Assembly: GCA_958295465.1 (NCBI GenBank)
Contig: OY282353.1
Span: 5,075,001 to 5,139,000 of the forward strand
Origin: an uncultured Gammaproteobacteria bacterium
GTDB lineage: Bacteria > Pseudomonadota > Gammaproteobacteria > HK1
DNA length: 64,000 nt
Direction of reading: 5' to 3'
Shown here: one piece after another, positions 2 to 54,138 of the stretch
How positions within the stretch are numbered: position 1 is the first letter of the stretch
How the letters are laid out: each line of letters begins with the position of its first letter
Notes under the pieces: model-generated
What the model saw: the letters and a program-made list of their open reading frames with translations, nothing else
Database searches by the model: none
What the model was told of the DNA's origin: nothing
Made by a program: the position numbers and the translations under genes

Positions 2-736
2 TACCGCAAGCTCGTTCGCGGCGATCCGAAAGGTCTGCCGGCGAGGTACAAGTATTTCTGGCAATCGGCCATCGGCCTCGGATGCGCCGTCTTTCTCTAC
101 CACACCGCGCGGCTTCCCGTCGAAACCCAGCTCATCGTCCCCTTCTTCAAGAACTTCATACTCGATCTCGGCTGGGGATACGTGGTGCTCACGTACTTCG
201 TCATCGTCGGGTCCAGCAACGCGGTGAACCTCACCGACGGCCTCGACGGCCTCGCGATCCTCCCCACCGTGATGGTCGCGGGGGCGCTCGGAATCTTCGC
301 CTACGTCACCGGACACAGCAACTTCTCGGGCTACCTCGGCTTTCCGTACATCGCCGGCGTCGGCGAGATCGTCGTCCTGTGCGGTTCGATCGTGGGAGCC
401 GGACTCGGGTTCCTCTGGTACAACACCTACCCCGCGCAGGTCTTCATGGGCGACGTCGGCGCCCTCGCGCTCGGCGCCGCGCTCGGACTCATTGCCGTTC
501 TCGCCCGTCAGGAGCTCGTGCTGCTGATCATGGGCGGGGTGTTCGTGATGGAGACGGCATCCGTCATCCTGCAGGTGGCGTCGTTCAAGCTGACCGGAAA
601 GAGGATGTTCCGCATGGCGCCGCTGCACCATCACTTCGAGCTCAAGGGCTGGCCGGAGCCACGGGTGATCGTCCGCTTCTGGGTCATCACCGTGGTACTG
701 GTCCTGGTCGGGCTGACGACGCTCAAGATCCGGTGA
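2..736 (+). CDS. mraY: Phospho-N-acetylmuramoyl-pentapeptide transferase MraY (5' end missing)
   Basis: The inner-membrane enzyme MraY transfers phospho-MurNAc-pentapeptide from UDP onto undecaprenyl phosphate to make lipid I. The frame is open from base 2 and the start lies outside the window, leaving about 244 residues of a protein that is usually about 360 long. Visible family signatures are [13 protein letters not shown] (Asp-rich, Mg-binding), [12 protein letters not shown], and the C-terminal [13 protein letters not shown] with its HHH motif. Several hydrophobic helices separate them. It is the first visible gene of the dcw cluster; murD begins 4 bases after the stop, so the two are surely co-transcribed. 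The identification is secure. Confidence 0.97.
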
Positions 737-740
737 TCGG

Positions 741-35430: not shown

Positions 35431-37161
35431 ATGAACAGAAAGAAGGCCGTTCGCCGTAGCGCCGAGTGGTTCGGCAAGGACGGCAAGGACGGGTTCCACC
35501 ACCGGAGCTGGATGAAGAACCAGGGCCTGCCGCACCACCTGTTCGACGGCCGTCCGGTCATCGGGATCTGCAACACCTGGTCCGAGCTCACCCCGTGCAA
35601 CGCGCACTTCCGGGTGCTGGCCGAGCGGGTCAAGCGCGGCGTGTACGAAATGGGGGGCTTCCCCCTCGAATTCCCGGTGATGTCGCTCGGCGAGACCCTG
35701 ATGCGGCCCTCGACCATGCTCTACCGCAACCTCGTGAGCATGGACGTCGAGGAGTCCATCCGCGCCAACCCCCTCGACGGCGTGGTGCTGCTCGTCGGCT
35801 GCGACAAGACCACTCCCGCCCTGCTCATGGGGGCGGCGAGCTGCGATCTGCCGGCCATCGTGGTCTCCGGCGGCCCGATGCTCAACGGGCGGTTCCGCGA
35901 CGGGCAGATCGGCTCCGGAACCCACGTGTGGAAGTTCGAGGACATGGTGCGGGCCGGCGACATGTCGATGCAGGAGTTCATGGACGCGGAGGCGTGCATG
36001 TCGCGCTCGGCCGGTCACTGCATGACGATGGGGACGGCTTCGACGATGGCGAGCATGTCCGAGTCGCTCGGCATCGCGCTGCCCACGAACGCCGCCATCC
36101 CCGCCGCGGACTCGCGCCGCAACGTGCTCGCCCACATGGCGGGCCGGCGGATCGTCGAGATGGTGGAAGAGGATCTCACCATGTCGAAGATCCTCACGCG
36201 CGAAGCGTTCGAGAACGCCATCCGCACCAACGGCGCCATCGGCGGCTCGACCAACGCGGTGGTGCACCTGCTGGCGGTGGCCGGGCGCATCGGGGTCGAC
36301 CTCTCCCTCGACGACTGGGACACGCTGGGCCGCGACGTCCCGTGCATCGTGAACCTCATGCCCTCCGGCGAGTACCTGATGGAGGATTTCTACTACGCGG
36401 GCGGACTGCCCGCGGTGCACCGGGAGCTGGCGGAAGCCGGGCTTCTCCACAAGGACGCGCCCACCGCGAACGGGCGCACCCTCTGGGAGAACGTGAAGGA
36501 CGCACAGTGCTGGAATCGGGACGTGATCTTCCCCCTCGCCGAACCCTTCAAGGCGCAGGGGGGCATCGCGGTGCTGCGCGGCAACCTCGCCCCGCAGGGC
36601 GCGATCCTGAAGCCCTCCGCCGCCACCGAGCCGCTCATGCGCCACCGCGGAAAGGCGGTGGTCTTCGAGGACATCGACGACTACAAGGCGCGCATCGACG
36701 ATCCGGAGCTCGCCGTGGACGCGACCTGTGTGCTGGTGCTCAAGGGCTGCGGGCCGAAGGGATACCCGGGCTTCCCGGAGACCGGCAACATGGGATTGCC
36801 CGCGAAGCTGCTCCGGCAGGGCGTGTCCGACATGGTGCGGATCTCGGATGCACGCATGTCCGGCACCGCGTTCGGTACCGTGGTGCTGCATACCGCGCCG
36901 GAGGCGGCGGCCGGCGGCCCCCTCGCCTTCGTCCGGGACGGCGACGAGATCGAGCTCGACGTTCCCGCCCGCAGGCTTGTCCTGCACGTCCCCGACGAGG
37001 AGCTGGAGAGGCGCCGCGCCGCGTGGCGGGCGCCGGAGCCGCATTCGGAGCGGGGATACCTGAAGCTCTACCTGGACCACGTCATGCAGGCGGACACCGG
37101 CGCCGACCTCGACGTCCTCACCGGTGGCAGCGGCGCGGGGGTGCCGCGCGAGAGTCACTGA
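35431..37161 (+). CDS. IlvD/Edd-family dehydratase, L-arabinonate-dehydratase-like
   Basis: The product is 576 residues, an iron-sulfur dehydratase. Cluster and metal ligands are visible in IGICNTWSELTPCN, VGCDKTTPALLMGA and RSAGHCMTMGTAS. IRTNGAIGGSTNAVVHLLA and the C-terminal SDARMSGTAFGTVVLH follow. It begins MNRKKAVRRSAEWFGKDGKDG and has FHHRSWMKNQG, features of the sugar-acid (arabinonate/xylonate) branch rather than biosynthetic IlvD. Together with the upstream FAH enzyme it probably forms a catabolic operon for a pentonate or related sugar acid. Exact substrate unknown. Confidence 0.88.
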   Translation: MNRKKAVRRSAEWFGKDGKDGFHHRSWMKNQGLPHHLFDGRPVIGICNTWSELTPCNAHFRVLAERVKRGVYEMGGFPLEFPVMSLGETLMRPSTMLYRNLVSMDVEESIRANPLDGVVLLVGCDKTTPALLMGAASCDLPAIVVSGGPMLNGRFRDGQIGSGTHVWKFEDMVRAGDMSMQEFMDAEACMSRSAGHCMTMGTASTMASMSESLGIALPTNAAIPAADSRRNVLAHMAGRRIVEMVEEDLTMSKILTREAFENAIRTNGAIGGSTNAVVHLLAVAGRIGVDLSLDDWDTLGRDVPCIVNLMPSGEYLMEDFYYAGGLPAVHRELAEAGLLHKDAPTANGRTLWENVKDAQCWNRDVIFPLAEPFKAQGGIAVLRGNLAPQGAILKPSAATEPLMRHRGKAVVFEDIDDYKARIDDPELAVDATCVLVLKGCGPKGYPGFPETGNMGLPAKLLRQGVSDMVRISDARMSGTAFGTVVLHTAPEAAAGGPLAFVRDGDEIELDVPARRLVLHVPDEELERRRAAWRAPEPHSERGYLKLYLDHVMQADTGADLDVLTGGSGAGVPRESH

Positions 37162-37475: not shown

Positions 37476-37905
37476 CGGGACTGAATCGCCCCGGGTTTCC
37501 CGGAGGGTGATTTGCTTGTGAACCGCCCCGGGAATCCCGAGGCGGTTCAGCACGAGCGCTCCGGCATGCAGTCCTTGGTGCGGGACAGCGCCGGAGAAGG
37601 CGAGGCGAACTTGCCGGCCCAGGCCAAGGCGGCGCACGGCCTGGACGGCAACGTCTTGGTCATGGCCTACTTGGAGCGTCAGGAGCAGGGCGACCCGGTG
37701 CATGCCTGGCCTCTATGACGAGCCCACCGTGATGGAACTCGCCAAGACCGCCGGCGGCGCCTGAGGGCGCCTGAAAACCCCGAAGGAGGACTTCCAATGC
37801 AATGCGCCTGCCCTCGTTCGCTTGCCTCGGAGACGGATGGCCGCAAGCACCGGGTGCGGCAAGCCAACCGCGAGCTCGAATAGAGGCGTTCGTCAGCCAT
37901 CCCAC
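37476..37905. other. Gene-poor stretch with short coding fragments
   Basis: This stretch has several short plus-strand fragments but no full gene. One frame ends LDGNVLVMAYLERQEQGD and stops at 37718; another, MPGLYDEPTVMELAKTAGGA, lies at about 37704-37766. Both look like real but broken protein pieces, possibly phage-derived; I do not recognise them. A small open frame with a very strong Shine-Dalgarno (37797-37883) is listed separately. Confidence 0.4.
37797..37883 (+). CDS. Candidate small ORF (28 residues) with strong Shine-Dalgarno
   Basis: AAGGAGGA at 37783-37790 sits six bases before ATG 37797, an unusually perfect ribosome binding site. The frame encodes 28 residues starting MQCACPRSLASETDG and ending in a TAG at 37881. 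It lies just upstream of the GT8-like gene at 37906. It could be a short leader, a peptide substrate of the neighbouring modifying enzymes, or the surviving start of a lost gene. I have no homology evidence. Confidence 0.3.
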   Translation: MQCACPRSLASETDGRKHRVRQANRELE

Positions 37906-38823
37906 ATGGAGACCACCGCAACAACACCGTCCCGGCGAACGTCGACCCTGTGCCTGGCCACGGCGACAACCACGGATTTTCTGCCTGGAACCATCGTCAC
38001 CATAGGCTCCTTCCTGAAACATCACCCGGGCTTTGATGGCGAAGTCGTAATCATTGAAGACGGGCTGTGCGAGGAGTACCGGGAGTTGCTGCGCACTTTG
38101 CATGGTTGCGTGCGGTTGGTCCCCGTGTCATCCGAGCTCCAAGCTCGAATAGCGCAGCTCACGGCCGCGCGCCCGGACATTCAGGACCGCGCCGCCCGGT
38201 TCTTCGCCATTGAGGCGTTGCGCCTGGCTGGATACCGCAAGGTGCTGTTCTGCGACAGCGACTTGCTGTTCCGGGCGCCGGTGGAGGAACTGTTCGACAC
38301 CGACGAAGCGCTGCTGTGCTGCGGCGACAGGGCGGCTCTGGAGAACAAGCACCGGGATGCCGCCACCTTCCTGCGCATGCAGCCGGAAAGTGGGGAGGAC
38401 GCCGCCGCTGTCCTGGAGCGGACATTCAACAGCGGGTTCCTGGTCATGGACGCCGGCGTTGTCGGGGAACGCACTTATGGGAAGCTGCTGGCGATGTTGA
38501 CGCCGGAGATGTGGCGCGGCATCGGCACGCCCCACACCGCGCAAGTCCTGCTGAACAGATATTTCGCCGGGCGGCAGACGCTGATCAGCTCGACCTACAA
38601 CTATCTGCTGGCTTCGGCGCCGGCCATTCGGTCCCGGGAGGGTCTGGGGGTGGCGGACGCCAAGGTCCTGCATTTCAATGTTCCCGGCAAGCCCTGGATG
38701 CCCCTGCGGTTACTCCGTTGGACGTGCGACGTCAAGCCGGTCCCCGGCATGTTGTTGTGGTGGGAGGCATGGGCGGACTGCCTGTCCACCCTGCACCTTT
38801 CAACAGGTGATTTCTTCAGGTGA
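37906..38823 (+). CDS. GT8-like glycosyltransferase (nucleotide-diphospho-sugar transferase fold)
   Basis: The product is 305 residues from ATG 37906. The N-terminal strand-loop LCLATATTTDFLPGTIVTI and HHPGFDGEVVIIEDGL, then YRKVLFCDSDLLFRAPVEEL with the metal-binding DSD at 117-119, mark a GT-A fold glycosyltransferase of the GT8/glycogenin-like group. KVLHFNVPGKPWMP near residue 250 is the typical His-containing C-terminal motif of this family. It is a paralogue of the minus-strand gene at 39582 (both contain ELFDTDEALLCCGDR). It probably glycosylates a peptide, protein or small molecule made by the adjoining cluster. Confidence 0.8.
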   Translation: METTATTPSRRTSTLCLATATTTDFLPGTIVTIGSFLKHHPGFDGEVVIIEDGLCEEYRELLRTLHGCVRLVPVSSELQARIAQLTAARPDIQDRAARFFAIEALRLAGYRKVLFCDSDLLFRAPVEELFDTDEALLCCGDRAALENKHRDAATFLRMQPESGEDAAAVLERTFNSGFLVMDAGVVGERTYGKLLAMLTPEMWRGIGTPHTAQVLLNRYFAGRQTLISSTYNYLLASAPAIRSREGLGVADAKVLHFNVPGKPWMPLRLLRWTCDVKPVPGMLLWWEAWADCLSTLHLSTGDFFR

Positions 38824-38859: not shown

Positions 38860-39570
38860 ATGATTCAACTGGCAGCCGGCGGCCCCAGCGTTGTCAAAGA
38901 CGACGAATGGATGGCGCAGCAGCATGAATTTGCGCACCGCCATTGCGTTGTGTTCAAGGGCTTTGTTGATGAATCCATGTTGAACCGCATCTCCCGGATG
39001 CTGGAAACGAGCCAGTACTATGGCCGCGAAGACGTTAGAGAGGGCGGGGTGTGGTCCAGGGAACTTACAATGCGGGACGATGAACCACTGGTGACGGCAT
39101 TTGTGCTTCTTCTCAATCAACCTCGGCTGTTCAAGGCAATTGCCGAGCTCACTGGTTCCAAAAGAGAAATTCGAATTTTCGAAGGCCGATGCTTTAAGCG
39201 TGTTCCGAACAGCAACCACTTTGATTCCTGGCACAACGATCGCCAACCGGGAAGGCTGTATGGACTAAGCATAAATTTGTCGCAAAAACCCGTGGAGGGT
39301 GGCGCTTTTCAAATTCGAAGCAAAAAAACCGGGGAGATTTTGCGAACGGTTCCGCCGAGTCGGTTTGGGGATGCGCACCTGTTTCGGGTGCATGGATCTC
39401 TTGAGCACAAAGTCTCCTCGGTGCAGGGAACCGAGCCGAGGTGTGTTTATGCGGGGTGGTTTTGCGGAGGGCCCGACTATCAGGACTATCGGGAGATGAT
39501 CCGAAAAGAGTTGTTTGCTCGTGCTGCCAGCATCCCGACGCCTCAAGCACGTTGGAATTGTATATTTTGA
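38860..39570 (+). CDS. 2-oxoglutarate/Fe(II)-dependent oxygenase
   Basis: The product is 236 residues. The facial triad of a prolyl-hydroxylase-like or clavaminate-like oxygenase is visible: H125-x-D127 in FDSWHNDRQPG, distal H183 in LEHKV, and the 2-oxoglutarate-binding R194 in EPRCVYAGWF. GLSINLSQKPVEGGAFQIR is the core strand region. It follows the GT8-like gene by 36 bases on the same strand, so the two probably form an operon converging on the minus-strand cluster. Codon use is less GC-rich than in the core genes. A hydroxylase of a peptide side chain is a plausible role. Confidence 0.78.
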   Translation: MIQLAAGGPSVVKDDEWMAQQHEFAHRHCVVFKGFVDESMLNRISRMLETSQYYGREDVREGGVWSRELTMRDDEPLVTAFVLLLNQPRLFKAIAELTGSKREIRIFEGRCFKRVPNSNHFDSWHNDRQPGRLYGLSINLSQKPVEGGAFQIRSKKTGEILRTVPPSRFGDAHLFRVHGSLEHKVSSVQGTEPRCVYAGWFCGGPDYQDYREMIRKELFARAASIPTPQARWNCIF

Positions 39571-39581
39571 AGAGAGAAGCG

Positions 39582-40484
39582 TTAAGGAACCAGCGCCGGA
39601 TACGCCGTCCGCAGATGCAGCTTCGCCAAGACTTCCAGGTAGGCATCGTACCAGAGCTTGAAGAGCGTGGCTGGGGTTCGATACGCGAGTTCGGCGCCAC
39701 CATGTGCCCAGCGCAGCATCGCGTCCGGCGTCCAAGGCTTCACCGGCCCCTTGAAATGCAGCACCTTCGCAAGCTCGGCGTTGAGGCCGGTGCGCTCCCG
39801 CACCTCCGCCGCCTCGGGCACGAAATAATTGTAAGTCCAGCTCGTCAGCGTCTGACGGCCCGCGAAGTAGCGGTTCACGACGGGTTGATCCGTAAGCCGG
39901 ATATTCAAGTTGCGCCACACCTCCGGCGCCATCAGCGCCAGCAAATCCGCATACACCCGCGGACCCGCGCAGGCGCCGTCGATGAGCATGAAGCCGCAGT
40001 TGAAGGGGCACTCCAAGACCGGTCGATCCGTGCGCCCTTGCAGCGCGAGACCGGTGTCGGGGTCGCGCTGCCGGTTCAGGACGAACTGTCGGTCGCCGCA
40101 GCACAGCAGCGCTTCGTCGGTGTCGAACAGTTCGTCAACCGGCGCGAGGAACAGCATGTCGCTGTCGTAGTACAGCACCTTGCGATAGCCGTCCAGGCGA
40201 AACGCGTCCAGCGCAAGGAACATGGGCGGGAGAATGGGTCGGCTTGGGTAAGCCGCCTTGAGATGCGCCACTCGGTCGAGCAGTTCCGGCGCGACCGGTT
40301 GGAACCGCACAAGCGGCGCCACCGCTTCGAGCACCGCGCACGACTCTTCGGTCAGGCCATCGTGAAGGACGATCACATCACCGTCGAATCCGGGATGATG
40401 ACGTCGAAACGAGCCCAGCATGGCGATGGCGCCGGGCAGGAAGTCATCCGTAACGGCGGTGACCAGGCAGACGTTCGCGGTCAC
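39582..40484 (-). CDS. GT8-like glycosyltransferase
   Basis: The product is 300 residues and closely similar to the plus-strand gene at 37906. MTANVCLVTAVTDDFLPGAI opens the GT-A fold, the DSD metal motif is at 107-109 in YRKVLYYDSDMLFLAP, and KVLHFKGPVKPWTPDAMLRW is the C-terminal His motif. It is the last gene of the minus-strand operon headed by the precursor-like peptide at 46208, overlapping the sulfotransferase-like gene before it by 4 bases. Only 11 bases separate its stop from that of the convergent oxygenase. Confidence 0.8.
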   Translation of the reverse strand: MTANVCLVTAVTDDFLPGAIAMLGSFRRHHPGFDGDVIVLHDGLTEESCAVLEAVAPLVRFQPVAPELLDRVAHLKAAYPSRPILPPMFLALDAFRLDGYRKVLYYDSDMLFLAPVDELFDTDEALLCCGDRQFVLNRQRDPDTGLALQGRTDRPVLECPFNCGFMLIDGACAGPRVYADLLALMAPEVWRNLNIRLTDQPVVNRYFAGRQTLTSWTYNYFVPEAAEVRERTGLNAELAKVLHFKGPVKPWTPDAMLRWAHGGAELAYRTPATLFKLWYDAYLEVLAKLHLRTAYPALVP

Positions 40485-41401
40485 AGGAGGTCGTATCCGA
40501 AGTGGTCGAGCACGTCTCGATGCCGTCGGAAGACATGCGAGAACGCCGCGACCCGCCGGGCGTCAAGGCGGGCGATCTGCCGAGCGTTCATGTCATTGAG
40601 CGTCTCGCAATAGCGACCCTTCACCGGCAACTGTTGTCGAAGGTTCAGATCGTCGATTTCCGGCACCAAGGTGCGCACAGCACACACCACCCGCTCCGGC
40701 TCGGCGCACATTGTCTCGTAGGTGAAGAACGTCCCGCGGTGGCCGTGCTTTTCGACATTGCGGCGTTGCCACGCCAAACAGGTGACGGCATGAGTGGCGG
40801 CAAGCTCATCCAGGGTTCGTTCCGGAAAGAGGGCCGCCAAAGCCGCAAGCTCGTGGGGTCGGTAGCGCCGGTAGCACCGTAGGAGGCCCTCGCAAACCGC
40901 GTAGGGGTTGCGCACCATGAACAGGAACTTCGCGTTGCGGAAGTGCCGCACGAGCTCATCCACGATCACCAGATGCGGTGGCGACTTGGTGTAGAAAACC
41001 GATGCCGCAGGGTCGCGGGCGTAGGCTTGGAAATACCACGCAACGCGGGAGCGCCTCCAATTGTACGCCGCAGGGTTTGCAAACCGCTCGAGCCAGCGGC
41101 GCTCGGCGGCCCAGAAAAGGCCCGGCGGCGGGTCGCCGGGGTCGAGCGGCTGAAAGTTGACCGGCCCAACGAAACCCGTCATGCGCTGACCCTCCACGGG
41201 GAGGTTCCAGGTGGCGCGGCAGGTCGCCAGCGCCTTTTGCAGGAAGGTGGAGCCGCTGTTGTTCGGACAGATTCCGAACAGATGGGTCGTCACGGCCTGC
41301 GCCACGCCGCAAGTGGCGCCATAGTGCAGGGGGTTGTCGCCGACGACGGTGAAGCTCCGACCGGCGAGATGCGATTGCACGGTGCGCATTGCGGCCACCA
41401 T
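40481..41401 (-). CDS. Sulfotransferase-like protein (third of three)
   Basis: The product is 306 residues from ATG 41401 (an in-frame ATG lies at codon 5). The PAPS 5'-phosphosulfate loop is LFGICPNNSGSTFLQKAL (residues 41-58), and AKFLFMVRNPYAVCEGLL is the 3'-phosphate-binding segment with Arg-Asn-Pro. The C-terminal end HFGYDLL is shared with the other two sulfotransferases in the operon, showing they arose by duplication. It starts 2 bases after the asparagine-synthetase-like gene. A role in sulfating the peptide product or a sugar attached to it is inferred. Confidence 0.75.
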   Translation of the reverse strand: MVAAMRTVQSHLAGRSFTVVGDNPLHYGATCGVAQAVTTHLFGICPNNSGSTFLQKALATCRATWNLPVEGQRMTGFVGPVNFQPLDPGDPPPGLFWAAERRWLERFANPAAYNWRRSRVAWYFQAYARDPAASVFYTKSPPHLVIVDELVRHFRNAKFLFMVRNPYAVCEGLLRCYRRYRPHELAALAALFPERTLDELAATHAVTCLAWQRRNVEKHGHRGTFFTYETMCAEPERVVCAVRTLVPEIDDLNLRQQLPVKGRYCETLNDMNARQIARLDARRVAAFSHVFRRHRDVLDHFGYDLL

Positions 41402-41403
41402 CT

Positions 41404-43308
41404 TTAGAAGTCGAGCAGCATCAGGGCATTGCTGATGGCGGCAAAGTGGCGCTTGGATCGGAAGCGGTCCGCGTCCAGGCGGGCGAGGAGGCGCGGCAGG
41501 TCAACGTACCGGGCGCGTGACGGCGTCCCGGCCAGCGCCTCAATCCGCCGTCGAACGATGGGCAGCGACTCGGCGAAGGCATCTATCGTCGATTCGTACC
41601 TGATCGGGTCGCTTTTGCTCGAATTCCAGCAGATCCCATCCGGCAGGACGGCGCCGCCGGGCAGGGACAACGCATAACGCATCAGCCAACGGCCCCAAGG
41701 TCCTCGCCGATACTGATCCGGCGGCAGGCCCAGCGCAAACTCCAGCACCCGGCGGTCCAGCAGCGGATAGCGGTATTCGACGCCGTGGCGCAAGCCGCTC
41801 GCCGCCCAGCCCTCGATGCGGTCGTCCAGCCTCCCATCCTGCATAATCCGTAGCTGTGTGCGCCTTAAGCTCACCTGGCGAAAAAATCGATGCGGCGGGG
41901 GCCTTACCTGCCGTGCGAATGCCGGGTTGATGAGCCAGCGCCGACGCTCAAGCGCCCGGTGCGAACGCGGCCCCCACAAAGGACGGCGACGCCGCAGATG
42001 GAATGGCAGGCGTGGATGCAGCAACGGGGCCAGCACATCCGCCAAAAACCTGAGCGGGCTTCCACCTTGCGCTCGGCAGATGGCGTGGAGCGTCCGCCAC
42101 CGCCCGCTCAAGAGCAAATATGCGTTGTATCCACGGCCGTTGAACGAAATGCCTTCATCCCCGCCCCAGCCCGACAGCAGCACCCGTACCCCTTGGGCCG
42201 CAGCGCAACGTTGCACGGCCTCCTCGTTGAGCTGGACCTGCACACCTGGATAGGCCCCGTCACGCTGATGGACAGCGGCAATGTCTTCCGGGCTGGGTGA
42301 CCTGTGGTGTACTTGCAGCCCTTCGCGGGCGCAGAGGTCGTGGATGAGGCCGTACTCTGACGCATGGCGCTCATCGGGGGGGCGGCTCGGCACTGGCAGC
42401 CAGCTGAAGGCAAGCGGCGGCGGGCGGCCCTCGCGCCGCAATGCACGGGCGGCGAGCGCCGCGATGCTCGACGAGTCCAAGCCTCCACTCAGATGCACAC
42501 CCATCGGATCCGGGCCGTGCAGGCGGTCCCGCACCGCTTGCTCGTAGAGCTCCAGAAACTGCTCTGCGTAGTCTTCATCCGAAGCGGGCCGCGCTCGGGG
42601 CGTGTGCTCCGGGCGCCAATGCCGCTCCAGCTTCGTTCGAATGCGCCCCGGCACAGCCGATGCGCGCTCGGCCCCCACCTTGACGGTGAGCGCATGGCCG
42701 GGCGGCAGCCTGCGCACCGCCTTGAACAACGTCCGGGTGCGGTTTATCCCCCTTGTCCCCAACATGGCGCTGCGCGTCAGAAAAGCCGCCACGCCTGCCT
42801 CATCAAGCGCATCGGGGACACCGGGGGCGGCGACTACCGCATCGACGGTGCCGCCGAAAACAAAGACCGCCGGCATCCGTGCGTAGTAGAACGGCCGGAC
42901 GCCGATGGGGTCACGGGCGCACAACAGCGTGCGCCGCCGACCGTCCCACACGGCGAAGGCGAAGTCGCCAAGCAGTCGTTCCGGACAGAGCCGGCCCCAG
43001 CGCATGTAGGCGCGGAGGACAAGATCGGCGTCGGCGAGGCCGAGCCGCTCGGCACGGCGGATGTTCAGCAGGTCACACAACCCCTCGCGGTCGTCAAGGC
43101 GAGCGGCCGCAGCGACGGCGACTCCGCTCTCCTGATGCGTACGCAACGACGAATCGGGCGCGGAGGTGCTGCGTACGCCAAGGGCGACCGCTCCGTCCGT
43201 CCAGTGCGCCTCGTCTGCTCGACCATCGCCGGCATGCGCCGCGAACATGGCCGCCACCGCTTCTCCGGCCGCCGCACCGCCGAGACAGCCGCAGATGATT
43301 GCCGTCAT
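41404..43308 (-). CDS. Asparagine-synthetase-like protein, lasso-cyclase-like
   Basis: The product is 634 residues. Residues 1-200 are a glutamine-amidotransferase-like domain (LGDFAFAVWDG, ARDPIGVRPFYY), but there is no Cys at position 2 (MTAIICG), so glutaminase activity is probably lost. The ATP-pyrophosphatase loop HLSGGLDSSSIAAL is at 272-285, with LLSGWGGDEGISFNG and VEYRYPLLDRRVLEFALGLP after it. This form (inactive amidotransferase, intact synthetase, YPLLDRR and CWNSSKSDP end) is the one seen in lasso-peptide macrolactam cyclases. It lies in an operon headed by a precursor-like peptide, so cyclase or amide-ligase function is likely; plain asparagine synthesis is the alternative. Confidence 0.8.
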   Translation of the reverse strand: MTAIICGCLGGAAAGEAVAAMFAAHAGDGRADEAHWTDGAVALGVRSTSAPDSSLRTHQESGVAVAAAARLDDREGLCDLLNIRRAERLGLADADLVLRAYMRWGRLCPERLLGDFAFAVWDGRRRTLLCARDPIGVRPFYYARMPAVFVFGGTVDAVVAAPGVPDALDEAGVAAFLTRSAMLGTRGINRTRTLFKAVRRLPPGHALTVKVGAERASAVPGRIRTKLERHWRPEHTPRARPASDEDYAEQFLELYEQAVRDRLHGPDPMGVHLSGGLDSSSIAALAARALRREGRPPPLAFSWLPVPSRPPDERHASEYGLIHDLCAREGLQVHHRSPSPEDIAAVHQRDGAYPGVQVQLNEEAVQRCAAAQGVRVLLSGWGGDEGISFNGRGYNAYLLLSGRWRTLHAICRAQGGSPLRFLADVLAPLLHPRLPFHLRRRRPLWGPRSHRALERRRWLINPAFARQVRPPPHRFFRQVSLRRTQLRIMQDGRLDDRIEGWAASGLRHGVEYRYPLLDRRVLEFALGLPPDQYRRGPWGRWLMRYALSLPGGAVLPDGICWNSSKSDPIRYESTIDAFAESLPIVRRRIEALAGTPSRARYVDLPRLLARLDADRFRSKRHFAAISNALMLLDF

Positions 43309-43361: not shown

Positions 43362-44231
43362 CTAGGTTCCTGCGCCGTCATTCGGCCAGATTGTGCAGGT
43401 CATGGCGAACCTTGCGTCCGTGAAGCGGTCCGTCCCGCAGACCACGCGAGTGACCTCATGCACATAGGCGCCGGGATGGAAGACGACGCTGTTGGCGGCC
43501 GGCTCGACCCGCGAGAACGCGCAGGCATCGAAGTCCCCCGTCTCGACTTCCGTATCGTAGAGCAACAAGTCGCCACCGGAGAAGCGGCGCGGCTGCGCAT
43601 GAAAATAGCAGTTGCCGACAAGGGGTGGCGAATCGCGATGCGGGCGGCCGTAGCCCCCGTTGAGATACGCCACCGCCGCCGGGACGATCCGGCAGCTATC
43701 GAAACCCTGCAGCCGCAGCCGCGCCGAGACGGTTGGCAGCACGGCGCGCACCTTCGGGACGAGCCATGCGCCAATGTCTTTGCAGGCTTTGGGAGGCGCC
43801 GCCAGTCCGCGGCGTTCGGAGATGTCAACTCGGCGCTTTCCACTTGGCCCCACCTTCGCCGGCGCGAAGCGTCCGCGCGCGTTCTGCGCCCACGACAACA
43901 AGCGTTCTCCCTCTGCGGAGGTCAGGAAGTTCGGAATCTGCACGAACGGCGCCGCCCGAACGCCCGTTGGCGACGCCGGCAAACGGTGGCTGCCGGTGAT
44001 CGCGCACAGCCAAGAGGCGCAAGGGTCGCCGGGGCGGAGTGCGCACAAGCGCCGATAAGTCTGGTGTGCGGCCGTAAAGCGGCCGTTCCCCCGCTCGATG
44101 TCTCCGAGCTGCCGCAATGCGTCGGCGTCAAGCGTGCGTCGCTGCAAGGCCGCCGCGGCCTGAGCGTGGAGACCTCCTGTGCCCAGCAGCGCATGTCGCA
44201 CCTCAGGGCGCAGCCAAATCGAGCTTGTCAC
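43362..44231 (-). CDS. 2-oxoglutarate/Fe(II)-dependent oxygenase with N-terminal TPR-like helices
   Basis: The product is 289 residues. Residues 30-75 look like one TPR unit (DALRQLGDIERGNGRFTAAH, YRRLCALRPGDP). From about residue 95 it is a prolyl-4-hydroxylase-type domain: H198-x-D200 in GRPHRDSPPL, SGGDLLLYDTE, H258 in HPGAYVHEVTRV and R274 near the C-terminal FAMTCTIW. It overlaps the sulfotransferase upstream by 4 bases (ATGA) and precedes the asparagine-synthetase-like gene by 53 bases. It resembles oxygenases that hydroxylate peptides or protein side chains. Confidence 0.78.
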   Translation of the reverse strand: MTSSIWLRPEVRHALLGTGGLHAQAAAALQRRTLDADALRQLGDIERGNGRFTAAHQTYRRLCALRPGDPCASWLCAITGSHRLPASPTGVRAAPFVQIPNFLTSAEGERLLSWAQNARGRFAPAKVGPSGKRRVDISERRGLAAPPKACKDIGAWLVPKVRAVLPTVSARLRLQGFDSCRIVPAAVAYLNGGYGRPHRDSPPLVGNCYFHAQPRRFSGGDLLLYDTEVETGDFDACAFSRVEPAANSVVFHPGAYVHEVTRVVCGTDRFTDARFAMTCTIWPNDGAGT

Positions 44232-45109
44232 AGGAGGTCATAGCCGAAATGGTCGAATACGTTCCCATGCCGTCGGAACACCCGGTTGCACAGCGCAACC
44301 TGCCCGGCGTCAAGGCGGGATATTTGCCGAGCGTTCATGTCGGTGAGCACGCTGTTGTACCTGCCCTTGACCGACAAGCGTTGCCGCAGGTTGAGGTCGT
44401 CGATTTGCGGAACCAGATCCCGGATGGTTTGCGCCACCCGCTCCGGCTCGGCGCACAGCGTCTCGTAGGTGAAGCACAGGCCCTGTGCGCCGTAGCTCTC
44501 CATGTTGCACCGCTGCTGCTCCAGGCTTGCCGCCACATGCAGCGCCGCCGCGGTCTCCAGCCGCTCGCCGTCAACCGCCACAGGCTGGTTGCGCTGCATC
44601 CGGCGGCGCAGCGCCCTGCAAATCCCCTCGCATAGCGCGTAGGGGTTGCGGACCAGGAACAGGAATCTCGCGTTGCGGAAATACCGGGCCAGCTCGCCGA
44701 CAATGAACGGATGCAGGTTGGTGACGAACACCGACGCCCGAGGAGCGTGCGCCCACGCCTGGAAGTACCATGCCTTGCGGGTGCGCGGCCAGTCATAGGC
44801 TTCCGGGTCCGACAGGACGTCAAGCCATTGCGGCCGGGACGCCGGGATGCGGTTGGAGCCGGTCAGCCGGCGGTCGTTCGCAGGGTCCGGCCCTCCGTAG
44901 CCAAGCGCCGTGCGGCCTTCCCCGAGCAGGTTCCATGTTTGCCGACTGGTCGCCAGCGCGGTGCGCAGAAACGTGGTGCCGCTGTTGTTTGGCGCAATCA
45001 GGAACAGATGGGTCGTCACGATGCGGTCGAGGTCATGGCGGGCGCCGTAGGCGGTGCAGTCCCGAAGCTGGCTATGGGCCGAAACACCGGGTGGTTCCAG
45101 CGTGGTCAC
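44228..45109 (-). CDS. Sulfotransferase-like protein (second of three)
   Basis: The product is 293 residues from GTG 45109, which overlaps the previous stop (GTGA). The open frame extends upstream inside the neighbouring gene, but that part is shadow. Motifs are LFLIAPNNSGTTFLRTAL (PAPS loop, residues 36-53) and ARFLFLVRNPYALCEGI, and the C-terminal end is HFGYDLL. The P-x-x-S-G-T-T loop is the best preserved of the three copies. The family transfers sulfate from PAPS to hydroxyl groups on sugars, lipids or tyrosine. Confidence 0.76.
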   Translation of the reverse strand: MTTLEPPGVSAHSQLRDCTAYGARHDLDRIVTTHLFLIAPNNSGTTFLRTALATSRQTWNLLGEGRTALGYGGPDPANDRRLTGSNRIPASRPQWLDVLSDPEAYDWPRTRKAWYFQAWAHAPRASVFVTNLHPFIVGELARYFRNARFLFLVRNPYALCEGICRALRRRMQRNQPVAVDGERLETAAALHVAASLEQQRCNMESYGAQGLCFTYETLCAEPERVAQTIRDLVPQIDDLNLRQRLSVKGRYNSVLTDMNARQISRLDAGQVALCNRVFRRHGNVFDHFGYDLL

Positions 45110-45936
45110 AGCAGGTCGTAGCCGAAATGGTCGAGTATCTCCCGATGCCGGCGGAACACCCGGCCAAGTGTCGCCACCTGCCCGGGGTCCAGGCGGGAGA
45201 TTTGCCAGGCGTTGAAGTCGGTGGGCAAGCAGTTGTATTTGCCCTTTACCAACAGGCGTTGCCGCAGGTTGAGGTCGTCGATTTCCGGGATCAGGCCCTG
45301 GATGGCGTGCGCCACGCGCTCCGGCTCCGCGCACATGTCCTCGTAGGTAAAGAAAATCCCGCGGTCTCCATATGCGTCAAGGTTGAGACGCTGCCGGGAC
45401 AGGCAGGCCACGACATGGGCAGCGGCCGTCTCGGGTAGGCTTCGCCCCGGAAAACGGGCGGTGAACGCCGCCATTCCAAGGTCCCGGTAGTACCGGCACG
45501 GGCTTTCGCAGACGGCGTAGGGATTGCGCACCATGAACAGGAACTTGGCGTTGCGAAAGCGCCGCGCCAAATCGCCCGCAATCAGCAGATGCGGCGGTGA
45601 CTTGGTGTAAAAAACCGACGCTGCCGGGTCGCGGGCCTGAGCTTGGAAATACCACGCCTTGCGGATCAGCGCCCAGTCATACCGCGCCGAGTCCGCCAAC
45701 CGATCAGCTCGGCGGCGGCCTGCCGCCCAGAGCACGGTAGCGGCCACAGGGTCGGCGAACCCCAACGCCAGATGGCCCTCCGTGAGGAGGTTCCACGTTT
45801 TTTTGGAAGTGCCCAACGCCTCCTTCAAGAGCGTCCAGCCGCTGTGGTTCGGGCTGATGCCGAACAGATGGGTCGTTACCTCATGCGCCACATCGTGGGT
45901 GGCTCCATAACAGGTCATGGTCGCCGATGTCCGCAT
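45106..45936 (-). CDS. Sulfotransferase-like protein (first of three)
   Basis: The product is 276 residues from ATG 45936; an in-frame stop just upstream excludes a longer start. The PAPS loop is LFGISPNHSGWTLLKEAL (residues 24-41), with His and Trp where the other copies have Asn and Thr or Ser, so its activity is less certain. AKFLFMVRNPYAVCES and the shared C-terminal HFGYDLL are present. It is the first enzyme gene after the precursor-like peptide gene, 101 bases downstream of its stop. That gap contains a short hairpin (46006-46020). Confidence 0.75.
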   Translation of the reverse strand: MRTSATMTCYGATHDVAHEVTTHLFGISPNHSGWTLLKEALGTSKKTWNLLTEGHLALGFADPVAATVLWAAGRRRADRLADSARYDWALIRKAWYFQAQARDPAASVFYTKSPPHLLIAGDLARRFRNAKFLFMVRNPYAVCESPCRYYRDLGMAAFTARFPGRSLPETAAAHVVACLSRQRLNLDAYGDRGIFFTYEDMCAEPERVAHAIQGLIPEIDDLNLRQRLLVKGKYNCLPTDFNAWQISRLDPGQVATLGRVFRRHREILDHFGYDLL

Positions 45937-46037: not shown

Positions 46038-46208
46038 TCAGGATGGGCGATAGGACGCTTCCTCGACCTCATTCACCTGAACATGTTCGCCACTGTTAGT
46101 TCGCGCCATCCGGTGCAAGGGAAGAATCCTCGGCTTTGACCAAGGGCGCTTCTCTTTCGGTCCTTCAGCCGCGGACTCACCTGTTTCGGGGGGGATTCGA
46201 TCCTTCAT
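46038..46208 (-). CDS. Lasso-type RiPP precursor-like peptide (56 residues)
   Basis: ATG 46208 follows GGAGGT by five bases and the frame runs 56 codons to TGA at 46038. The peptide starts MKDRIPPETGESAAEG and continues KEKRPWSKPRILPLHRMA. A W-x-x-P-x-I motif (W23, P26, I28) resembles the Y-x-x-P-x-L motif by which lasso leaders are recognised. Counting from Gly40 as core residue 1, W is at -17, P at -14 and I at -12, the spacing of lasso leaders; the usual Gly at -8 and Thr at -2 are His and Asn. The proposed core GEHVQVNEVEEASYRPS has Glu at position 8, right for a Gly1-Glu8 macrolactam. It heads an operon with a cyclase-like protein. Its class is inferred, since B1 and B2 partners are missing nearby. 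Confidence 0.65.
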   Translation of the reverse strand: MKDRIPPETGESAAEGPKEKRPWSKPRILPLHRMARTNSGEHVQVNEVEEASYRPS

Positions 46209-46289: not shown

Positions 46290-47195
<906 letters not shown>

Positions 47196-48623: not shown

Positions 48624-49100
48624 GGGACGACGATCCTCGTGGCGTTCATGCTGTACCGATATCGGGTGCCGGCCGCGCCGGAGCCGGCATAGATCGCCAA
48701 CCGCGGGGGCAACGCAGGCGTCGCCTCCGCCGCAACACCCGGCGATCCTCCGAATTCTTCCCTGTCCACACCCGTGTGGGTCTTCAAGATGTCGAGGTCT
48801 GCCACAACACCCGGTCGGTCCTCCGAATCCTTCCCCTGGCCCGCTCGTCGGCCCGGACAGGGCCCCTGCCTCGATCTGCCACAACACCCGGCCGGTCCTC
48901 CGAATCCTTCCTCTGGCCCGCTCGTCGGCCCGGACAGAGCCCCTGCCTCGACACGAATCCACCGATGAGGGCATTACCCTCGCGCACCGGTTATGCTCGC
49001 TTCCGGGCCGGGACCCCGCGGCCGATGCGGGGTTCCGGAGGATACCGCGCCGGACCGGTCGATACCGCCATTCGATACCGCCGTCGACGAGAGGATGCGC
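48624..49100. other. Intergenic region with tandem repeats upstream of hsdM
   Basis: This divergent intergenic region holds two 77-base direct repeats (48798-48951), a degenerate partial third copy (about 48729-48765), and no supportable gene. It must contain the promoters for the MDR oxidoreductase and the hsdM gene. Frames read across the repeats are Arg/Ser/Pro-rich shadows. Confidence 0.5.
48798..48951. repeat. Two tandem copies of a 77-bp repeat
   Basis: The unit beginning TCTGCCACAACACCCGG and ending CCCCTGCCTCGA occurs at 48798-48874 and 48875-48951 with only a few mismatches. A shortened, diverged relative lies upstream near 48729. Each unit contains TCCGAATCCTTC and GGCCCGCTCGTCGGCCCGG, the latter a small palindrome (GGCCCG/CGGGCC type). 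The repeats precede a type I restriction-modification operon. No CRISPR spacing. Confidence 0.75.
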
Positions 49101-51260
49101 ATGCAGACGGGCCACGGCGACCTCGACTGGATCGCGAACTACATCTGGGGCATCGCCGACGACGTCCTCCGCGACCTCTACGTCCGGGGCAAGTACCGCG
49201 ACGTCATCCTCCCCATGACCGTGCTGCGCCGGCTCGATGCGGTCCTGGAAGGCAGCAAGCAGGCGGTCCTCGGCATGAAGGCTTCCCTCGACGCGGCGGG
49301 GGTGGTCGAGCAGGACCCGGCCCTGCGCCAAGCGGCGGGACAGGCTTTCTACAACACCTCGAAGTTCACCTTGCGCGACCTCCGGGCCCGCGCCAGCCGC
49401 CAGCGGCTCACCGCCGACTTCGAGGCCTGGCTCGACGGGTTCTCGCCGAACGTGCAGGACATCCTGGAGAGCTTCGAGTTCCGCAACCAGATCCCACGGC
49501 TCTCCCGAGCCGACGCCCTGGGCACCCTGATCGAGAAGCTCACCTCGCCCGAGGTCAACCTGAGCCCCGCGCCGGTGATGAACACCGACGGCTCGGTGCG
49601 CCATCCCGGCCTCGACAACCACGGCATGGGGTCGATCTTCGAAGAGCTGGTTCGGCGCTTCAACGAGGAGAACAACGAGGAGGCGGGCGAACACTGGACC
49701 CCGCGCGACGCGGTGGCGCTCATGGCGCGGCTCCTCTTCCTCCCCGTCGCCGGCGAGGTCAAGTCCGGCACCTACCTGCTCTACGACGGCGCCTGCGGCA
49801 CCGGTGGCATGCTGACGGTGGCCGAGGAGACGCTGCGGCAACTCGCCGCCGAGCACGGCAAGGAGGTCTCCACGCACCTCTATGGCCAGGAGATCAACGC
49901 CGAGACTTACGCCATCTGCAAGGCCGACCTGCTGCTCAAGGGCGGGGGCGAGGCCGCCGACAACATCGTGGGCGGTCCGGAACACTCCACCTTGGCCGCC
50001 GACGCCTTCCCGTCCCGCGAGTTCGACTTCATGCTCTCCAACCCGCCCTACGGCAAGAGCTGGAAGACCGACCTGGAGCGCATGGGCGGCAAGAAGGAGA
50101 TGCGCGATCCGCGCTTCGTGATCGAGCACGCCGGGGACCCCGAATACTCCCTGGTCACCCGATCGAGCGACGGCCAGATGCTCTTTCTCGCCAACAAGCT
50201 CGCCAAGATGAAGCGGCACACCCCGCTCGGCAGCCGCATCGCCGAGGTCCACAACGGCAGCTCGCTCTTCACCGGCGACGCCGGGCAGGGCGAGAGCAAC
50301 ATCCGCCGCTGGATCATCGAGAACGACTGGCTGGAGGCCATCGTCGCCCTGCCCCTCAACATGTTCTACAACACCGGTATCGCGACCTACGTGTGGGTGC
50401 TCACCAACCGCAAGCCCGAGCACCGCCGGGGCAAGGTGCAGCTCATCGACGCCACGAAGTGGTACCGGCCGCTCCGCAAGAACCTCGGCAAGAAGAACTG
50501 CGAGCTGGGCGAGGGCGACGTCGCCCGCATCTGCGACACCTTCCTCGCCTTCGAGGAGAGCGAGCAGAGCAGGATCTTCGACAACGCCGCCTTCGGCTAC
50601 TGGAAGGTGACGGTCGAGCGGCCCTTGCGGCTTGCCGTCGATCTCTCCGCCGGCAACCGGGATCGATTTCGGACCGCTTGCGAGGAGGCCGGCGAGGCAC
50701 CGCTCGCCAACCTCGTCGGCCGCGTGGCCGGCCGCATCGGCGCGGGGCCGCACCGCGACTTCAACCGCTTCCTGGGCGCGGCGGCGCAGGAGGCGGCGGA
50801 GCGAGGGGTCAAGCTGACGGCCAAGCGCATGAAGCTGCTCAAGACGGTGTTGGCGGAGCGGGACGAGCACGCCGCACCCGTCGTCGCGAAGACCCACAAG
50901 CGGGGCACGCGGGCCGCCCCGCTGCACGGCCTGTTCCGGACCACCGTCAACGGGCGACCCGCCGTGGTCGAGTACGAGCCGGACGTCGACCTGCGCGACA
51001 CCGAGCAGATCCCGCTACAGGAGGAGGGCGGCATCGAAGCGTTCCTGCGGCGCGAGGTCCTGCCGTACGCTGCTGACGCCTGGTACCGACCGGACAGCGT
51101 GAAGGTCGGCTACGAGATCAGCTTCACGCGCTACTTCTACAAGCCGAAGCCGATGCGGACGCTGGCGGAAATCCGGGCGGACATTCTCGCGCTGGAGCAG
51201 GAGACGGAAGGGCTGATCGAGGAAATCATCGGACTCCGACCGGGCGTGCCCGCCCCGTGA
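49101..51260 (+). CDS. hsdM: Type I restriction-modification methyltransferase HsdM
   Basis: HsdM is the N6-adenine methylase subunit of a type I system. ATG 49101 (MQTGHGDLDW, with GAGAGG six bases upstream; ATG 49095 also possible) gives 719 residues. The N-terminal helical HsdM_N domain (WGIADDVLRDLYVRGKYRDV) is followed by the SAM loop DGACGTGGM at 229-237 and the catalytic NPPY at 314-317 (SNPPYGKSW). The C-terminal 180 residues beyond the methylase core are longer than in EcoKI-type HsdM and end in a coiled-coil LEQETEGLIEEI. Target specificity comes from HsdS at 52609. Confidence 0.95.
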   Translation: MQTGHGDLDWIANYIWGIADDVLRDLYVRGKYRDVILPMTVLRRLDAVLEGSKQAVLGMKASLDAAGVVEQDPALRQAAGQAFYNTSKFTLRDLRARASRQRLTADFEAWLDGFSPNVQDILESFEFRNQIPRLSRADALGTLIEKLTSPEVNLSPAPVMNTDGSVRHPGLDNHGMGSIFEELVRRFNEENNEEAGEHWTPRDAVALMARLLFLPVAGEVKSGTYLLYDGACGTGGMLTVAEETLRQLAAEHGKEVSTHLYGQEINAETYAICKADLLLKGGGEAADNIVGGPEHSTLAADAFPSREFDFMLSNPPYGKSWKTDLERMGGKKEMRDPRFVIEHAGDPEYSLVTRSSDGQMLFLANKLAKMKRHTPLGSRIAEVHNGSSLFTGDAGQGESNIRRWIIENDWLEAIVALPLNMFYNTGIATYVWVLTNRKPEHRRGKVQLIDATKWYRPLRKNLGKKNCELGEGDVARICDTFLAFEESEQSRIFDNAAFGYWKVTVERPLRLAVDLSAGNRDRFRTACEEAGEAPLANLVGRVAGRIGAGPHRDFNRFLGAAAQEAAERGVKLTAKRMKLLKTVLAERDEHAAPVVAKTHKRGTRAAPLHGLFRTTVNGRPAVVEYEPDVDLRDTEQIPLQEEGGIEAFLRREVLPYAADAWYRPDSVKVGYEISFTRYFYKPKPMRTLAEIRADILALEQETEGLIEEIIGLRPGVPAP

Positions 51261-52395: not shown

Positions 52396-52625
52396 CATTG
52401 CCCACGCAGCGTCTGCGGAGCGGCGCTGCAATCGTCCCGTCTACGACACCGTGCGGCCACGAGGCTCCCACGTGCGGCTCACCACACGGGTCAACGATGA
52501 ACATCACGAGGTGATCCCGCTGCACGGTTCCGATCAGGGCAAAGACGCTGGCGAGCATCCTGAAGAGCGTTGCCCAACACCACGAAATGACCGTCGAGGA
52601 ACTGCTCCGTGAACTCGATTTGTGA
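52392..52625 (+). pseudogene. HicA toxin, disrupted by frameshifts
   Basis: The start MTLPTQRLRSG overlaps the hicB-like stop. Further on, VRPRGSHVRLTTRVNDEHHE and VIPLHGS appear in a second frame, containing the HicA motif G-S-H with the catalytic His. Then KTLASILKSVAQHHEMTVEE and LLRELDL* appear in a third frame. Together these cover a complete 70-residue HicA, but at least two frame changes break it. The HsdS start lies within its last codons. Confidence 0.75.
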
Positions 52626-54138
52626 ACTCGCGCGCCACGGGGCATCCGCACTCAAGCCGTATCCGGCTTACAGGGACTCCGGTGTCGAGTGGCTGGGGGA
52701 GGTCCCAGCGCATTGGGAAGTCAGGCAGCTTGGGCGCCTCGGTCGGCTCTTCAAGGGAGGCGGCGGCACAAAGGAGGACGAGAGAGAAGACGGCATTCCG
52801 TGTGTCCGCTACGGAGACCTGTACACGCACCACCGGTTTTTCATTACCGAAAGCCGGGCATGCGTCACCCCCGAGCTTGCGGCAACGACGTACACTCCGA
52901 TCCGGTACGGAGACGTTCTGTTCGCCGGATCCGGCGAGACCATCGACGAAATCGGCAAATCAGCGGCCAATCTGATTCGCGGCACCGCATGTTGCGGCGG
53001 AGACGTAATCATCTTCCGGCCCTCCATCGACGCGGACGCTCGGTTCCTCGGTTATGCAACAGACTGTCCGCCGTCTGCCCGCCAAAAGGCGTGCATCGGA
53101 CGAGGGTTCACGGTCATGCACATCTATTCGCGCGACCTCAAGTACATGACCGTTGCAATACCCCCACTTCCCGAACAAGCTGCCATCGTCTGCTTTCTCG
53201 ACCACGCCGACCGGCGTATCCGGCGCTACATCCGCGCCAAGCAGAAGCTGATCGCGCTCCTGGAGGAGCAGAAGCAGGCCATCATCCACCAGGTCGTCAC
53301 GGGCCAGATCGACGTCCGAACCGGCGGCGAGCCCTATGGAGAATACAAAGCCTCCGGTGTCGAGTGGCTGGATAAGGTGCCGGCGCAATGGGAGGTAAAG
53401 AAACTGCATCAATGTGGGACGATTATTGGGGGCATGACGCCGAGCATGGAAAATCGGCGATTTTGGGATGGTTCGATCCCTTGGGTTACGCCGAAGGACA
53501 TGAAGCGAGATGCCATCGACGATTCGGGTGTGAAGGTCACGGAAGGCGCGCTTCACGAAACATCGCTACGCTTGATCGATCCGCCGGCGGTACTGATGGT
53601 CGTTCGCGGGATGATCCTGGCTCGCAGGGTTCCCATCGCCTGGATCAAGAGCCCAGTCACGATCAATCAGGACATGAAAGCCTTGCTCCCGGGCGCAGTG
53701 ATCAACGCAGAGTTTCTTGCGCGTATGTTGGATTCGGCGCAAGAAACGTTCGTGCCACTGATAGATCAAGCCGGTCACGGTACTTGCCGCCTTCCAACCG
53801 AACGCTGGCGATCTCTTGCCGTGGCCATCCCTCCAGCGGACGAGCAGCGGCTGATAGTCGACTCCCTTGAAGCGTCCGCGCGCACCATCGTGGCGGCAAT
53901 AGAAAATGCTCACCGCCAAACCACACTCCTCGACGAGTACCGAACGCGCTTGATCGCCGATGTCGTCACCGGCAAGCTCGACGTCCGCGAGGCGGCGGCA
54001 GGGCTTCCCGAGGTGGATCCGCTTGCCGTCGAAGGTGATGCGGTTGACGGCGTTGATCACGAAGCCGGGTCGGAGCGCACGGGCTGGCGACACGCCGTGG
54101 AGGAAGGCGGTCCGTTGGCGGATGTCGCGGACCCGTAG
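52609..54138 (+). CDS. hsdS: Type I restriction-modification specificity subunit HsdS
   Basis: HsdS recognises the bipartite DNA target. GTG 52609 gives 509 residues. It has two target recognition domains in the usual repeat plan: YPAYRDSGVEWLGEVPAHWE opens TRD1, and PLPEQAAIVCFLDHADRRI with the helix to QAIIHQVVTGQID is the first conserved region. YKASGVEWLDKVPAQWEV opens TRD2, and PPADEQRLIVDSLEAS and LIADVVTGKLDVREAA are the second region. After that a non-conserved acidic tail of about 45 residues follows. It is separated from hsdM by two toxin-antitoxin modules. Confidence 0.93.
   Translation: MNSICELARHGASALKPYPAYRDSGVEWLGEVPAHWEVRQLGRLGRLFKGGGGTKEDEREDGIPCVRYGDLYTHHRFFITESRACVTPELAATTYTPIRYGDVLFAGSGETIDEIGKSAANLIRGTACCGGDVIIFRPSIDADARFLGYATDCPPSARQKACIGRGFTVMHIYSRDLKYMTVAIPPLPEQAAIVCFLDHADRRIRRYIRAKQKLIALLEEQKQAIIHQVVTGQIDVRTGGEPYGEYKASGVEWLDKVPAQWEVKKLHQCGTIIGGMTPSMENRRFWDGSIPWVTPKDMKRDAIDDSGVKVTEGALHETSLRLIDPPAVLMVVRGMILARRVPIAWIKSPVTINQDMKALLPGAVINAEFLARMLDSAQETFVPLIDQAGHGTCRLPTERWRSLAVAIPPADEQRLIVDSLEASARTIVAAIENAHRQTTLLDEYRTRLIADVVTGKLDVREAAAGLPEVDPLAVEGDAVDGVDHEAGSERTGWRHAVEEGGPLADVADP

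Follow-up and report, generated by a model that had tools for sequence, protein, structure and literature searches.

The asparagine-synthetase-like protein encoded in the DNA analysed here (the window, 64,000 nucleotides at 5.08-5.14 Mb of the single-contig, 5.68-Mb genome G000) is very probably a lasso-type macrolactam cyclase, and the locus around it is, in a reading of the gene content that we hold with moderate confidence, a horizontally moving lasso satellite that would use a protease and an exporter encoded elsewhere. The missing Cys2 of this protein is normal for lasso cyclases, and the unusual part is its genomic surroundings; the wider finding, beyond the identity of the cyclase, is a lasso system that is mobile and scattered over the genome and has few protease hubs.

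In the proposed model, the lasso-peptide macrolactam cyclase would have lost its glutaminase chemistry and would use ATP to adenylate the side chain of Glu9 (or Glu8) in the core of the neighbouring 56-residue precursor, after which the N-terminal amine of the core would attack and close the ring; adenylation and peptide-amine attack are the steps suggested by the family. The satellite locus would supply the precursor, the cyclase and tailoring enzymes, with no recognisable leader protease, RRE or exporter of its own. Leader removal and export would then take place in trans, carried out by a single hub 1.86 Mb away that comprises an NTP_transf_5-B2 fusion and an ABC exporter, with a PqqD/RRE another 17 kb away, and that may recognise its substrates through a common W-x-[K/R]-P leader. 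Tailoring would probably place sulfate and sugar on the tail, with the conserved Tyr and the C-terminal Ser as candidate sites. We infer the processing in trans, the chemistry and the modified residues from sequence.

The cyclase ORF is intact and encodes 634 residues beginning with MTAIICG. The sequence-only reading had claimed that Cys2 is absent while the ATP-pyrophosphatase half is intact, and both points hold: Ala3 occupies the nucleophile position, SGGLDSS is present, and PF00733 matches with 110.6 bits. That reading would have fallen had another start exposed an N-terminal Cys, and no plausible start does so. The ATG is preceded by five codons (GAT GGA GAG GCC GAC) and then a stop; since these five codons alone separate the stop from the ATG, an earlier start is ruled out, and a GGAGAGG stretch lies directly 5' of the ATG. 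Within codons 1-250, the only start-like codons followed by Cys are ATC at codon 5 and TTG at codons 77 and 129, and starts at either TTG would cut away much of the amidotransferase half. A true asparagine synthetase with a misplaced start was rejected on this survey together with the residue alignment.

The alignment contained four amidotransferase references (E. coli AsnB, Mesorhizobium AsnB, an XrtA amidotransferase and an N-acetylglutaminylglutamine amidotransferase), McjC, two plasmid cyclases adjoining annotated lasso B2 genes, ten paralogs and 36 relatives. Cys stands in the nucleophile column in all four references and in none of the 50 other rows (7 of which are gapped there); because its absence is common to the aligned relatives, it is not a sequence error. 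AsnB residues C2, R50, N75 and G76 correspond to A, S, A and A in the window cyclase, with loss of Gln-pocket and ammonia-site residues, and AsnB Glu349 corresponds to Trp (GWGGDE) both here and in the majority of the 50 rows. The N-terminal Cys and the Gln-binding Arg, Asn and Gly that characterise asparagine synthetase B are thus lacking. Cys6, invariant as CG in 11 of 11 aligned cyclases of the same genome, was considered as a shifted nucleophile and rejected, as it occupies a separate alignment column and Ala3 pairs with AsnB residue 1 in the structure. The N-terminus of a Shinella amidotransferase (MCGICG) carries the nucleophile Cys and the CG Cys together in one alignment, so Cys6 does not belong to the nucleophile column; in the structural alignment, residue 1 of AsnB chain 1ct9_B lies opposite model residue 2, which is Ala3 of the ORF because the Met was left out of the modelled sequence.

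Both halves of the protein are recognised by Pfam (PF13537, glutamine-amidotransferase-type, and PF00733, Asn_synthase). Among the NCBIfam models, NF033535 for lasso isopeptide cyclases scores highest (305 bits against a model cut-off of 525), and the asparagine synthase model gives 155 bits. None of ten further scanned proteins, at least seven of them adjoining a B2 match, reaches the NF033535 cut-off, and because B2-adjacent cyclases (354, 389 and 419 bits for those of loci L060, L066 and L074) miss 525 too, this threshold does not separate these proteins. A structure prediction and a phylogeny had been proposed as checks, and both were carried out. An AlphaFold2 model (mean pLDDT 88.2, 29 sequences) has fold matches along its length to TsnB9 (Z 30.7), AsnB (29.2), beta-lactam synthetase (27.6) and carbapenam synthetase (23.0), and therefore the amidotransferase half keeps its fold. 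These enzymes share the two-domain fold of the window cyclase (Z 23-31) and, unlike it, act on other substrates without a precursor peptide; beta-lactam and carbapenam synthetases also function without the nucleophile Cys. In a quick tree with AsnB-type references and lasso cyclases, the 11 cyclases of the same genome and ten relatives form one set (21 rows, SH-aLRT 99), which is nested among cyclases of which several adjoin B2 (25-row set, SH-aLRT 96), so that the window cyclase falls with B2-adjacent cyclases. The split from the four amidotransferase references has an SH-aLRT of 86, below the 95 mark, and McjC forms a very long branch; the likeness to beta-lactam and carbapenam synthetases is judged from the fold matches. 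The earlier suggestion of a lasso-type cyclase is thus supported by the best NCBIfam match, the residue losses, the quick tree and the presence of a precursor in the gene set.

The precursor ORF lies 2.7 kb upstream of the cyclase, at the head of the gene set, and has a good ribosome-binding site. Its leader motif fits the RRE-binding consensus of lasso leaders, [Y/W]xxPx[L/V/I/A/F/Y], given in the accessible text of PMC13381572, the core has Glu at position 9 or 8, depending on the register and within the 7-9 expected for Asp/Glu, and the peptide ends in Ser. No Pfam family matches the window precursor, and an NCBIfam search of 10 precursors was likewise without a match. Similar precursors occur at nine of the ten other cyclase loci of the genome (17 precursors in total, including that of the window), and orthologues 88, 83 and 74% identical are found in L028, L057 and L029, respectively. 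Among 60 precursors of this and related genomes, picked by eye from ~96 candidate strings, the C-terminal residue is Ser in 52 and a Tyr lies within the last 12 residues in all 60; 31 strings were set aside as chance-looking GC-rich frames, and five precursor-like strings stand outside the 60 (L044 KKPWARP..., the second one of L051, and those of L056, L065 and L072), of which those of L056 and L065 have the tail Tyr and C-terminal Ser. In a comparison of four genomes, Gly, Val-Gln, Glu and EE-x-SYRPS are the constant parts of the core, and its other positions vary. The precursors at L018:10486-10824 and L051:11873-12433 have two Cys in the core (CVTRG.FCHEDE) and may yield a disulfide-bearing lasso.

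Two registers of the core can be drawn, one with Ser as residue 1 (a Ser1-Glu9 ring) and one that begins 3 bases later with Gly (a Gly1-Glu8 ring). Leader position -2 is Thr and rarely Ile or Val, according to the part of PMC10368454 available. With the Ser1 register, this position is Thr, Val or Ile in 37 of 51 precursors, and with the Gly1 register in 5 of 51, the count covering those of the 60 with a recognisable Gly, with Ser1 taken as the residue before it, and with an automatic register that is visibly wrong in ~8 of the 51 (L013, L020, L030a, L038, L039b, L045, L046 and L047). Because the rule holds far oftener in the Ser1 register, a Ser1-Glu9 ring is favoured for the predicted window peptide, with Gly1-Glu8 as the alternative.

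Besides the precursor and the cyclase, the cassette encodes three sulfotransferases, two GT8 glycosyltransferases and two 2OG-oxygenase-like proteins (Table 1).

Table 1. Coordinates (window positions) of the cassette genes, the precursor elements and the cassette edge
Feature	Position	Strand	Remarks
GT8-family glycosyltransferase	37822..38823	+	PF01501 E 1.3e-16
2OG-Fe(II) oxygenase	38860..39570	+	PF13640 E 4.3e-8
GT8-family glycosyltransferase	39582..40484	-	PF01501 E 8.8e-16
Sulfotransferase ST1	40481..41401	-	PF13469 E 1.4e-10
Lasso-type macrolactam cyclase (very probable)	41404..43308	-	GATase-like half without nucleophile Cys; ATP-pyrophosphatase half (SGGLDSS, GWGGDE)
TPR-like and 2OG-Fe(II) oxygenase-like protein	43362..44231	-	PF13640 E 1.6e-4, below cut-off
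Sulfotransferase ST2	44228..45334	-	PF13469 E 2.5e-10; 95% to L029 and L057 copies from residue 94
Sulfotransferase ST3	45106..45936	-	PF13469 E 9.1e-12; 93% to L028 copy
Precursor peptide, 56 aa	46038..46208	-	...RPWSKPRILPLHRMARTN / SGEHVQVNEVEEASYRPS (predicted)
Predicted core if Ser is residue 1	46041..46094	-	Ser1-Glu9 ring
WSKPRI leader motif	46125..46142	-	fits RRE-binding consensus
IS1634-type transposase remnant, cassette edge	46344..47162	-	NF033559 E 7.7e-9, below cut-off

ST2 and ST3 are adjacent genes (44228-45936) and 56% identical. Homology of ST2 starts near 45055, so that translation probably does not begin at the longer ORF start; the first GT8 gene in Table 1 probably also has its true start downstream of 37822, because identity with other chromosomes begins at 37884-37896. 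Both sulfotransferase types lie upstream of the window cyclase; at the same place, a relative of one type occurs in G001 and a relative of the other in G002 and G003. Of the 10 other cyclase loci in this genome, 8 have sulfotransferase matches, some of them fragments. The TPR-oxygenase has relatives in L015 and L016 that match PF13640 more strongly (E 1.1e-14 and 2.1e-15). Searches of solved structures were little informative, returning the CurM sulfotransferase for ST1 (E 0.025) and, by name, only designed repeat proteins for the TPR-oxygenase. Acidic residues directly precede the conserved Tyr of the precursor tail, and acidic residues just before a Tyr resemble tyrosine-sulfation sites; our guess is that the modified residue is this Tyr or the C-terminal Ser. 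The C-terminal Ser is the kinase target in paeninodin-type clusters (accessible text of PMC8498205 and PMC9266682), and in the window gene set no kinase match was found. The transposase remnant contains a long proline-coding repeat tract. Beyond it, 48993-51260 and 52609-54138 resemble, by eye, the HsdM and HsdS subunits of type I restriction-modification systems.

Profile searches recognise no leader protease B2 or RRE (PqqD) in the window, and no exporter in the gene set, so the canonical arrangement of a lasso cluster, with B2 and RRE alongside A and C, is not found at this locus. The genome has a single recognised B2, detected by two models (PF13471 and NF033537, 85 and 67 bits) at 3.26 Mb, 1.86 Mb from the window cassette. 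It forms part of a 595-residue NTP_transf_5-B2 fusion adjoining an ABC exporter, and the 20 kb of this hub also contain an HPr-kinase-like gene (PF07475, below cut-off), together with a cyclase and a precursor. Three PqqD/RRE genes were found, at 2.21, 3.28 and 4.47 Mb, one of them 17 kb beyond the hub and two of the three not at the hub. The cyclase profile has 13 matches in the genome, 11 of them close (including that of the window), and the ratio of full-length close cyclases to B2 is 11:1 in G000, 5:1 in G001, 6:1 in G002, 9:1 in G003, 3:1 in G004, 3:1 in G005, 4:1 in G006 and 1:2 in G007. One B2 with 3-9 full-length cyclases is thus found in six of the seven related chromosomes, G007 lacking the pattern, and in G004 all three full-length cyclases lie within ~26 kb of B2. 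NTP_transf_5 or B2 matches are present in the fetched stretch at 4 of 28 OY282 loci (L033, L035, L045 and L049), and, of 50 loci from records other than OY282, at least 20 have a B2 match in the stretch around the cyclase, a lower bound because the query was one distant protein. From the counts of cyclases and B2 we infer that the satellites may depend on the hub. Tandem divergent Asn-synthase/GATase proteins of 736-737 residues (L021:6689-13041, at ~2.20-2.21 Mb of the same genome) are 29% identical to the window cyclase over part of their length and lie near 2OG oxygenases, HPrK-like matches and PqqD; they possibly mark a second, different RiPP locus.

The account that survives best against a hub working in trans, though unlikely, is that of an ordinary, self-sufficient lasso cluster with an unrecognised local protease, for example within an oxygenase-like or sulfotransferase ORF. 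The leader must be removed, HMM searches can miss divergent proteases, and one satellite (L016) has a PqqD gene ~5 kb from its cyclase; yet the eight cassette enzyme genes match non-protease families (one below cut-off), relatives of the same genes flank the cyclase in three other chromosomes, and the hub B2 is recognised by both models.

Movement of the satellite is suggested by comparison with related chromosomes. The cassette is 96.5% identical over 6593 bp in G001, 95.8% over 5433 bp in G002 and 96.7% over 5432 bp in G003. For window positions 100-4200 (cell-wall genes by eye), identity is 84% with G001 and 65% over 4 kb with G006, and in the other five chromosomes the best 0.6-kb pieces reach 72-75% (74% in G002, 72% in G003). 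For the gene at 35431-37161, which by eye is ilvD, the G001 copy is 98% identical and stands ~400 kb away from the cassette there; G006 gives 67% over 1.4 kb, with only pieces shorter than 160 bases elsewhere. The 16S rRNAs of G002 and G003 are 91.3% identical; a search with RF00177 gave no match in G000, G001 or G006 and one in each of five sister records. Since the cassette is 96-97% identical while even the best-matching pieces of housekeeping DNA reach 72-84%, recent horizontal transfer of the cassette would be the simplest reading, with assembly chimerism as an alternative source of the near-identity. The transposase remnant stands at the cassette edge in both G000 and G001 and is 71.5% identical to a 576-residue ORF in the hub stretch (L013, 18015-19745). 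The hub stretch is itself 84-95% identical over ~2-3 kb in the six chromosomes compared (G003 left out), so the hub may have moved too, and "resident" is a relative term. Within the family of the window genome, cyclases (E 1e-80) occur in 3 of 17 genomes, all three single-contig; none was found at this threshold in three other drafts of the genus, which may miss genes. B2 occurs in those three cyclase genomes and in three further ones of the 17.

Alternatively, and rather improbably, a once complete lasso system was copied around the genome and its B2-less satellites are non-functional, decaying relics. Such decay would suit the transposase remnant and the incomplete cyclases of related genomes (one split in G001, fragments in G004, one broken in G007), but no internal stop interrupts the window cyclase or any of its 10 close paralogs, dN/dS of six enzymes is 0.14-0.73 and below 1 in 27 of 27 pairs, and in four genomes the core Gly, Val, Gln and Glu and the SYRPS tail stay constant amid varying neighbours. 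The precursor itself has a dN/dS of 0.54-1.27 (6 pairs), calculated from 56-60 codons.

It is quite improbable that the lasso-type cyclase makes an unthreaded or larger macrolactam in place of a true lasso. Known lasso peptide rings have 7-9 residues (accessible text of PMC9266682), and both options for the window peptide fall within this range, whereas some related precursors would need 10-11 residues from Ser1; the relatives, however, adjoin lasso B2. In the precursors of L012, L033, L036, L039, L040 and L058 (leader type DGEV.SG), the nearest acidic residue is 9, 10 or 11 from Ser1 (8-10 from Gly). A further reading, in which the protein is an asparagine-synthetase-like amidotransferase whose substrate is a polysaccharide or a small molecule (compare the XrtA/PEP-CTERM and NAGGN systems), would suit the GT8 and sulfotransferase neighbours and the weaker matches to TIGR03108 and TIGR03104 (138.6 and 124.2 bits, against cut-offs of 816.9 and 570.1), but is highly improbable given the absence of the nucleophile Cys (present in the references of those systems), Asn75 and Gly76, the Trp at AsnB Glu349, the adjacent precursor family that tracks the cyclases, and the roughly twofold higher score of the lasso model.

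The satellite and hub arrangement preferred here shares parts with known clusters. The paeninodin, pseudomycoidin and Sphingobium SyanA clusters, which encode phosphorylated or glycosylated lasso peptides, likewise combine a lasso cyclase, the leader motif and a C-terminal Ser, and the HPr-kinase-like and NTP_transf_5 genes of paeninodin-type clusters are also found at the hub (accessible text of PMC8498205 and PMC9266682). In these clusters the B proteins and the cyclase are described together, whereas in the present genome many cyclase loci appear to be served by a single hub, and the window locus, where no kinase was matched, encodes sulfotransferases and GT8 enzymes. The Bradymonas Bsf cluster resembles the present system in its cyclase, kinase and nucleotidyltransferase genes and in a non-Thr residue (Ile) at leader position -2, as in some precursors here, but has B1, B2 and cyclase in one cluster, and its kinase acts on Ser3 rather than the C-terminal Ser (accessible text of PMC10368454). 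Firmicute lasso clusters (Zhu et al. 2016, as cited in the accessible part of PMC8498205) are noted with one flanking sulfotransferase gene, compared with three at the window locus. In the sphingomonads Pontixanthobacter, Sphingorhabdus and Citromicrobium (L056, L061, L063 and L065), cyclases 34-38% identical to that of the window are accompanied by HPrK-like, GT8 and B2 matches, and by sulfotransferase matches in three of the four clusters; unlike at the window locus, B2 lies in the same stretch as the cyclase. In prochlorosin biosynthesis one LanM acts on many scattered precursors. The present system similarly pairs a common enzyme with dispersed precursors, but the common component would be the protease/exporter, and each satellite brings its own cyclase.

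A narrow look at open-access literature, including the accessible text of PMC8498205, PMC13381572 and PMC9266682, found no report of a sulfated lasso peptide (the available text of the review PMC9266682 has no word beginning with "sulf"), and no paper joining a lasso B2 protease with action in trans was found among the open-access papers searched. Genome-mining rules that demand adjacent B and C genes would miss such loci, and the near-identity of the cassette across divergent chromosomes provides a naturally occurring example of RiPP exchange. Should the hub act in trans, a single promiscuous protease/RRE combined with many cyclases would be a natural toolkit for lasso libraries, and the sulfotransferases might yield sulfated lasso peptides. 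A more tentative view, to which we give somewhat less than an even chance, is that distantly related bacteria each keep a protease/exporter hub into which mobile, protease-less cassettes, made up of precursor, cyclase and enzymes for sulfation and glycosylation, dock through a common leader; were this plug-in economy true, one genome could make at least a dozen differently decorated lasso peptides.
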